From a bacterium (GTDB lineage Bacteria > CSSED10-310 > JAJRTK01): 28,646 nucleotides of DNA. The stretch is from the NCBI GenBank assembly GCA_024278345.1, contig JAJRTK010000232.1, forward strand, positions 1 to 28,646, written 5' to 3'. Positions 1 through 7,624 of the stretch are shown piece after piece (position 1 is the stretch's first letter; each line of letters starts with the position of its first letter). The notes beneath the pieces were generated by a model. It did no database searches. It worked only from the letters and a program-made list of their open reading frames with translations, and was not told where the DNA came from. Position numbers and translations under genes: made by a program.

Positions 1-201
1 GGCCTCGGTCATGGTACCGGCCACCCGAAAAAAGCGCGCAGCGCACAAAGATGTGGGTCCAGGGAGCTGGCTCCCTGGCGTGGGTCTGGGAGCGGCGCTC
101 CCAGCGGAGGTCCGGAGGCAGTGCCTCCGCCGGGTTCCAGGGCTGGAAGCCCTGGGGCGGCGTCTGAAATCTGCACCGTGGCCGGTACCATGACCGAGAC
201 C
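1..201. mobile_element. MITE-like element with 24-bp terminal inverted repeats
   Basis: Bases 1-24 and 178-201 are inverted copies of one another and differ at a single position (base 3). The shared core contains CATGGTACCGGCCAC. The enclosed 153 bp have no credible coding potential and are dominated by four consecutive hairpins, listed separately. Small size, long terminal inverted repeats and no transposase suggest a non-autonomous element or a structured dispersed repeat. The window starts at the left repeat, so its true outer edge and any target-site duplication cannot be seen. Confidence 0.6.
53..157. repeat. Tandem array of four covarying hairpins
   Basis: Four units of 25-27 bp follow each other. 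Each has a short G-rich linker (GTGGGT, GTGGGT, GGAGGT, CGGGTT) and then a perfect hairpin. The hairpins are CCAGGGAG/CTCCCTGG at 59-78, CTGGGAGC/GCTCCCAG at 86-104, CGGAGGC/GCCTCCG at 113-129 and CCAGGGCT/AGCCCTGG at 137-155, with loops of 3-4 nt. Arm sequences differ between units but pairing is always kept, so the structure looks conserved rather than the sequence. It is not a CRISPR array, because there are no identical repeats with unique spacers. Confidence 0.75.
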
Positions 202-6577: not shown

Positions 6578-6965
6578 TCAATCTCTCCTTACAGAGGACA
6601 TGGGAAACAAAGCCCCTCGTACAAAAAAACGCCCACAGAGTAAAAACCCACCACCGCCAGTTCCAGCAAGCCCTGCAACAGATCAGCGGCGAAAACCTCG
6701 CGTCCAAAGCACCCACTGTTCCACACTTTACCCCTAACCCAAGCGGCAAGCGAATTCAAAATGGGTCTATCCACGTAAGCCTGGGGAGGTGGTCATCATG
6801 TCGGCGGATCCACGTAAGGCGGGACAAATTGTCGTCGATCCAGTATGGAAGGATTTGAAAAAAAAGATCCTAAAACCTGGAGCGCCAACATGGGATTTTT
6901 GCGCAAATCCATCCTTCGGGCAACGCCCCGCTCCGCTCGGCGGTCGTCCGAAAACTATAGCATGT

Positions 6966-7161
6966 GGGTCTCCCGGCCCGCATGCCTCGGGCTTCGCCCT
7001 GCGCCCACCAGGGAGCCCGCTCACTTCCCGTTGCAACTTGCGGGCAACGGGATCCCTACCCACGTGGATGGACGCTGCGCCTCTTTTTTTGCGCTCGACG
7101 GTCGTTGCGGGCGGGTCTCCCGGCCCGCCCGCCCTTCCGGCGGTCAACCGGCACCCGCCGG
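6966..7161. repeat. Hairpin cluster with shared TCTCCCGG loop
   Basis: The 16-bp GGGTCTCCCGGCCCGC occurs at 6966-6981 and again at 7113-7128. In each case the flanking bases pair around the loop TCTCCCGG. The first is GTGGG/CCCGC with one G-T pair; the second is a perfect 9-bp stem, GCGGGCGGG/CCCGCCCGC, at about 7109-7134. Other stems nearby are CCCGTTGC/GCAACGGG around 7027-7051 and CCGGCGG/CCGCCGG around 7138-7161. The constant loop with variable arms recalls the hairpin array at 53-157. Confidence 0.6.
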
Positions 7162-7183: not shown

Positions 7184-7339
7184 GGGGACCTATCAGATCC
7201 GGTTGACAAGTCCACGCACGAAAGGAACCCACCGTTCAATTCCGTGAATCCCGTCCAGCCCGCCACCGGCAAGATGCCGGTGCCACCAGGGCGGCGCTGC
7301 GGAGTGTAAAGCAAAAACGCGGGGATTTGATAGGTCCCC
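7184..7339. mobile_element. Second small element with terminal inverted repeats
   Basis: GGGGACCTATCAGATCC at 7184-7200 is matched in inverted orientation at 7323-7339 with one mismatch. The 122 bp between them include a perfect 7-bp hairpin, CACCGGC-AAGAT-GCCGGTG, at 7264-7282. There is no coding capacity. Size and plan (terminal inverted repeats around internal hairpins) match the element at 1-201, although the terminal sequences differ. No target-site duplication is obvious. It could be a MITE, a structured repeat or a processed RNA locus. Confidence 0.5.
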
Positions 7340-7624
7340 CCGATTTAACCATGTACTTTCATGGTAAGGGGACGCAGACCATCGAGCCAGGCTGGGGCTC
7401 CGCCCTCCGCGGTCATGAGGAGAACTTGTTCTGTGCGGCGCCGAATCGCGACAACCTATGGTGGAGGACTTGACATTCAAGACAGTTGCTGGACCAACAT
7501 TCAGGTACGACGCGTTGCGTCTTGGTTTTGTCGGGTGTCCCGGCTTACGTTGATACCCTTCCACCGGGAACGGTTTGGACAGGGCCGGTTTCAAGGGTTT
7601 CCGGCCCGTTTTTCGGGGTGAAGT

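Follow-up and report, generated by a model that had tools for sequence, protein, structure and literature searches.

At the very start of a 28,646-nucleotide stretch of bacterial DNA (the window, contig C156 of a draft genome of 6.06 Mb in 550 contigs, 87.9% complete, hereafter the host genome) lies a 201-bp segment in which a row of hairpins is framed by inverted repeats. This locus raises the question of what kind of element it is, by what means it has spread, and what has kept its hairpins paired while the sequences of their arms changed.

Structure of the element

The initial annotation had described a hairpin array inside a terminal-inverted-repeat element, and this description was borne out. 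The terminal inverted repeats (TIRs) are complementary at 23 of 24 positions (96%) and are conserved in the copies read, and between them stand four hairpins, H1 to H4, all perfectly paired and preceded by two smaller stems (Table 1). Arm lengths had been given as 7-8 bp, which holds for H2 to H4 (8, 7 and 8 bp) but not for H1, whose 9 bp extend the range to 7-9 bp. The reported G-rich linkers (GTGGGT, CGTGGGT, CGGAGGTC and CCGGGTT) and their periodicity of 24-27 bp were found again, the hairpins starting at positions 59, 86, 113 and 137, that is, at spacings of 27, 27 and 24 bp. The element is gene-free, with no open reading frame (ORF) of 80 aa or more inside its 201 bp.

Compared with dinucleotide shuffles, the whole element folded with z-scores of -7.5 on the plus strand and -8.1 on the minus strand. 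Once the TIRs were removed, these values were -2.3 and -4.2, respectively; the interior is GC-rich, so that its shuffles fold well too. A stable fold on both strands would be in line with a functional structured RNA, regulatory or small, that is spread by the TIRs, but no match for the hairpin array was obtained in Rfam at either gathering or relaxed thresholds. We return to this possibility below, together with the changes observed in the hairpin arms.

Table 1. Positions of the element, its parts and related remnants in the window (position 1 is the first base).
Feature	Position	Strand	Basis and remarks
Complete family-1 MITE (F1)	1..201	none	Copies 92-100% identical; TSDs at other copies
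Left TIR GGCCTCGGTCATGGTACCGGCCAC (T1 type)	1..24	+	Repeat search; 215 genome matches to core; contig begins at its base 1
Right TIR	178..201	-	Repeat search
Small leading hairpin H0, GCGC(gca)GCGC	34..44	+	Sequence; older copies TACGACGC(gga)GCGTCGTA
Small stem CACA(aaga)TGTG	44..55	+	Sequence; some older copies GTACAT/ATGTAC
Group II intron site in other copies, none in window copy	56..57	-	Junction of bases 56 and 57 (+), lying 2 nt 3' of H1 when read on -
Hairpin H1, CCAGGGAGC(tg)GCTCCCTGG, 9 bp	59-67/70-78	+	Sequence; common to second MITE family F2
Hairpin H2, CTGGGAGC(ggc)GCTCCCAG, 8 bp	86-93/97-104	+	Older copies CCAGGAGC/GCTCCTGG, compensatory
Hairpin H3, CGGAGGC(agt)GCCTCCG, 7 bp	113-119/123-129	+	
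Hairpin H4, CCAGGGCT(gga)AGCCCTGG, 8 bp	137-144/148-155	+	Older copies CCAGGGCC/GGCCCTGG, compensatory
Degenerate F2 relic: T2-type end GATCCACGTAAGGCGGGACA, H1-like hairpin, inserted hairpins CCCGTTGC..GCAACGGG and of GCATG..CATGC type	6807..7095	-	Compared with F2 copies
F2 end fragment: T2 TIR GGGTATCAACGTAAGCCGGGACA and H0 hairpin	7504..7557	-	Compared with F2 copies; weak profile match 7489-7540

Copy number and mobility of the element

The search of the host genome with the TIR core, allowing at most one mismatch, returned 215 matches (107 + 108), and the reversed-pattern control returned 0. Forty scored matches to F1 were 92-100% identical to the window element, and its copy number exceeds 100, with contig ends falling inside copies at many contigs. 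The element is therefore far from being single-copy, the outcome that had been named beforehand as telling against a mobile structured element. Target duplications (TSDs) were evaluated in the 22 complete F1 copies with both flanks available: 9 showed a perfect TSD of 8 bp and 2 one of 9 bp, whereas none of 462 mismatched flank pairs reached 7 or more of 8 positions; the window copy is outside this count, its contig beginning at the element's base 1. Around half of the full copies are devoid of a TSD, possibly owing to decay or recombination. In addition, one F1 copy (L183:3557-3359) is nested in another repeat, F2, of which uninterrupted paralogs occur at L166, L195, L138, L175 and L174, these empty sites being paralogous F2 copies within the genome and not sites in syntenic genomes. 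The flanks of F1 copies lay in ORFs in 23% of cases vs 61% of random sites (p = 6e-11).

The TSDs at full copies, the insertion with uninterrupted paralogous sites and the many copies identify the window element as a MITE: it is short and multi-copy, it is bounded by TIRs, other copies of it have TSDs and one of them paralogous empty sites, it carries no transposase gene, and it has a parent insertion sequence (IS) with the same TIR, which is described below. An older F1 subfamily has the TIR GGCCTCGTCCATCGTTTCGGCCAC, with the change present at both ends together, and the copy at L041 measures 174 bp, one hairpin being missing. The young form of the TIR had no match in 59 other genomes, and searches for the window element in plasmids and for the TIR in viral contigs found none. 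A repeat following a solo TIR on contig C96, first read as an IS end, was discarded, most of its matches belonging to an unrelated repeat.

A second MITE family with the same hairpin module

The repeat F2 constitutes a second MITE family, with ends (GGGTATCCACGTAAGGCGGGACA) unlike those of F1 and with an 8-bp TSD that was exact at 4 of 10 paired ends and matched at 7 of 8 positions in one. F1 and F2 have in common the leading stems, the linker and H1 (AAAAAGACGCGGAGCGTACAAAAACGTGGGTCCAGGGAG..CTCCCTGG), after which F2 carries hairpins of its own, GCAGGGC/GCCCTGC and CCGGGGAC/GTCCCCGG. Within 872 kb of the host genome, 51 of the 56 H1 hairpins were located no more than 260 bp from a TIR of the T1 or T2 type.

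A third kind of flank (GGCGTGTACTTTCAYGGTAAC..) was seen around F2 arrays at L131:8303-8491, L150:7308-7504 and L127:249-439; it is a direct, not an inverted, repeat. The window also holds a further repeat at 7184-7339, with inverted ends GGGGACCTATCAGATCCGG .. GATTTGATAGGTCCCC and the hairpin CACCGGCA(aga)TGCCGGTG, and the sequence of these ends is widespread in the genome.

DUF6399 insertion sequences as probable partner of the element

The older form of the TIR, GGCCTYGKTCATCGTTTCGGCCA, is present in several other bacterial lineages belonging to several phyla. A scan of GTDB genomes with this form gave at least 105 stretches, many of them element ends and some likely coding coincidences; the matches in alphaproteobacteria, Nocardioides and Thiomonas, which look like such coincidences, were left uncounted. 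Three loci contained a single DUF6399 gene between TIRs with a TSD. In an uncultured member of the Magnetococcales (L296), a complete IS of 1882 bp has identical 23-bp TIRs, the TSD ccaatctt and one ORF of 587 aa. The encoded protein begins with an HTH-like region, has the conserved motifs DETF, SD and EGRNG, and carries DUF6399 (PF19936, E=1.7e-47) at its C-terminus; HTH and rve (E=0.05) profiles matched weakly in addition. The copy on a Thiodictyon plasmid (L308, TSD gtccaacc) bears no annotation other than 'DUF6399 domain-containing protein', and the one from Caldilineaceae (L276), with the same TIRs and the TSD agaatctg, has its DUF6399 gene interrupted by an ISAzo13 element. With regard to a candidate DDE/RNase H catalytic fold, the AlphaFold2 model of the L296 protein was poor (pLDDT 52.7) and Foldseek on it was uninformative, and a profile search of the PDB with the DUF6399 protein returned nothing informative. 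At L276:2609-3394, on the minus strand, the ORF of the DUF6399 C-terminus has an in-frame extra RCPELVEG that resembles an inserted short palindrome.

The host genome contains DUF6399 as four fragments, and no intact IS of this kind was found in its draft assembly. On contig C80 a 3' remnant of DUF6399 directly adjoins the TIR GGCCTTGGTCATAGTACCG, a variant also present on MITE copies, and on contigs C188 and C507 the ends of DUF6399 are followed by an F2-type TIR. In a genome of the same phylum (G003), DUF6399 ends adjoin the older T1 TIR GGCCTCGTTCATCGTTTCGGCCA. DUF6399 was present in 3 of 386 genomes, and no relatives were found in viral contigs and phages. Neither multi-copy transposase ORFs nor long TIR-TIR spans were found in 872 kb of the host genome. 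The IS256 transposase (PF00872), suggested as partner by the 8-9-bp TSDs, was absent.

Intergenic, GC-rich palindromes in high copy are also features by which the element might be taken for a REP/BIME-type repeat moved by a RAYT (Y1) transposase, and the host genome has a single weak match to PF01797, in a 242-aa frame (G000:C390:22999-23169, L198). This match remains below the cut-off, however, and 24-bp TIRs with 8-bp TSDs are unlike the REP/RAYT signature; given the TSDs and the link to DUF6399, we consider such an origin most improbable.

Gene order, TIRs and TSDs point to the DUF6399 protein as the putative transposase of these elements. Mobility of the element and its IS partner are well supported, and the proposal of a mobile structured element has thus gained support from its copies, its TSDs, paralogous empty sites and a transposon partner. 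The literature searched contained no mention of DUF6399 and no match for the letters of the TIR, and the IS family is probably undescribed. Altogether, it is very likely that the element is a high-copy MITE with 24-bp TIRs and 8-bp TSDs mobilised by a DUF6399 transposase.

Folded interiors of MITEs with the same TIR in other lineages

Exact 8-bp TSDs flank MITEs carrying this TIR in bacterium Yes70-08, Legionellaceae, Schekmanbacteria, Desulfoluna and Desulfobacteraceae, the TSD of the last (L262) deriving from a gap-free 8-base comparison. Fold z-scores of -2 or below were observed in 27 of 31 distinct interiors (median -5.2), a set chosen by TIR only and dominated by Yes70-08, compared with 7% of control stretches. 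The hairpin sequences mostly differ between lineages under the same TIR. In a MITE from Desulfoluna (L240), the hairpin GGAGGCTCTGCCTCC equals a common form of H3 here (window 114-128), which suggests either that certain hairpins are common to several lineages or that they have arisen more than once.

Folded interiors are thus nearly universal in MITEs with this TIR, over lengths from 85 to ~430 bp, while in the autonomous IS L296 no comparable folding was seen in 100-nt pieces of the coding part. This distribution would fit a hairpin array needed for transposition: by forming stems or cruciforms, the ~150-bp interior would become shorter and bent, allowing the transposase to pair the two TIRs. 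Against such a role, folding is weak in the interiors of a few short MITEs (z of -0.2 in L283 and -0.9 in L254), and copies with deleted hairpins exist, such as the 174-bp F1 copy that has lost one. We regard a requirement of this kind as unlikely, albeit worth keeping in view.

Covariation and upkeep of the hairpin arms

Covarying arms had been taken in the initial annotation as a sign of selection on folding. In a comparison of 20 F1 core variants, 98% of cells were paired and 18 cells at 4 pairs had changed on both sides, these 18 cells corresponding to few independent events inherited by many rows; none of 500 shuffles reached this count, and the slid controls gave 0. The main two-sided changes were those from CTGGGAGC/GCTCCCAG to CCAGGAGC/GCTCCTGG in H2 and from T-A to C-G in H4, and hairpin 3 of F2 has undergone compensatory changes likewise. 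On the contrary, in 61 young F1 copies none of 36 arm changes was compensated; loops were ~7 times more variable than arms, and the arms varied no less than spacers and TIRs. The deduction of selection on folding from covarying arms is therefore supported only in part. Since compensation is found between subfamilies but not among recent arm changes, we conclude that the ability to fold has been preserved in the long term, whether through selection or through correction of palindromes, while no such control is visible at the level of single copies.

Template-switch correction at palindromes can keep hairpin arms perfect without selection. In the present element, perfect but differing arms might be maintained by such quasipalindrome correction at replication rather than by selection for a folded product, the hairpins acting as a mutational attractor in neutral MITEs. 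The uncompensated arm changes of the young copies agree with this explanation, as do differences that come in blocks, the two adjacent pairs of H2 having changed together as expected from one correction event. It leaves unexplained the strong hairpins in almost all MITEs with the same TIR elsewhere, as well as the kept linkers. We consider quasipalindrome correction a serious candidate, somewhat short of an even chance. A functional structured RNA would account for the compensatory changes between subfamilies and for the presence of the module in two MITE families, but it is at variance with the uncompensated recent mutations and with the other hairpins found under the same TIR elsewhere, and we judge it very unlikely.

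Hairpins as insertion targets

A group II intron, assigned at the level of Rfam RF00029 (at four loci), is inserted in the host genome beside H1, and its position is precisely the same in both F1 and F2. Three 5' junctions (L128:14563, L135:19898 and L170:6894) and five 3' junctions (L118:61, L119:97, L122:99, L123:216 and L144:135) were located. These insertions indicate that H1 serves as a site for another mobile element. Furthermore, small hairpins of five or more kinds are inserted within hairpins of the array (for instance CCCGTTGC..GCAACGGG and GCGGCCC..GGGCCGC), resulting in a hairpin within a hairpin at L026, L040, L119, L145, L149, L150, L170, L174 and L175. Such small hairpins lay no more than 90 bp from an array motif in 22 of 29 cases, against a background of 7.6%.

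Proposed mechanism

We propose that a DUF6399 transposase, no longer intact in the draft assembly, would recognise the TIRs in trans and move the MITE, which would insert mostly into non-coding DNA and generate an 8-bp target duplication. The hairpin array would be a structured passenger module, common to F2 with its different TIRs (also those of a DUF6399 IS), that gains small hairpins by nested insertion and in which H1 marks the group II intron insertion site. Hairpin cargo may have an advantage in that it renders read-through transcripts inert and offers little for selection to remove, an explanation that we advance tentatively, at a little less than even confidence; the main alternative to it is a direct role of the hairpins in joining the two ends.

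A broader proposal, possible rather than probable in our view, is that DUF6399 proteins act as transposases in an IS family, as yet undescribed, that spans several phyla, that MITEs of this family nearly always carry folded, exchangeable hairpin cargo, that the module has moved between TIRs and come to serve as an insertion site for small hairpin elements and group II introns, and that the hairpins are needed for spread. If this were true, many of the GC-rich hairpin repeats that lack an explanation in environmental bacteria would be the cargo of one transposon system. The system described here offers one explanation for the scattered hairpin repeats in unrelated environmental bacteria. Moreover, DUF6399, listed in databases as being of 'unknown function', would gain a concrete role as an IS transposase, judging from its sequence context, with TIR and TSD length defined, and the question of why bacterial MITEs are so often hairpin-rich becomes experimentally addressable.

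Comparison with known systems

BOX elements of Streptococcus pneumoniae and S. suis resemble the present element in being intergenic, high-copy and MITE-like, and their defined ends enclose a variable number of hairpin modules, called boxB (PMC3049150). In S. suis the same boxB modules occur between two different end pairs, comparable to the H0-H1 module in F1 and F2 (PMC3049150). In contrast to BOX, the 23-24-bp TIR is here common across phyla and tied to a DUF6399 IS, and each hairpin has its own arms; the likeness is one of organisation only. REP/BIME and GTAG/CGTC palindromic repeats are likewise dispersed, nested and mosaic palindromes (PMC3733652, PMC3116915), but the element described here has TIRs and an 8-bp TSD, and its host genome is devoid of a RAYT above the cut-off. 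Stem-loop sequence families share with it the condition of intergenic repeated families with a common predicted fold; the survey of them covered 40 genomes and grouped stem-loops by sequence and structure, and its abstract ties no family to one TIR or transposase (PMC2267715). Group IIC introns insert at the stem-loops of terminators and attC sites (PMC4424553); the intron found here also lies directly beside a stem-loop, with the difference that this stem-loop belongs to a MITE and is present in two MITE families.

With bacterial MITEs in general, the element shares TIRs, TSDs, the lack of a transposase gene, intergenic preference, a folded transcript and a related IS with the same TIR (PMC10969869). 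It departs from them in being GC-rich instead of AT-rich (PMC10969869), and in that folded cargo is general to the MITEs of this TIR while being mostly lineage-specific in sequence. We assign the element to no named repeat family beyond MITE, and what is new in it is the family of its parent IS, a TIR that recurs across lineages, and hairpin cargo as a general feature.
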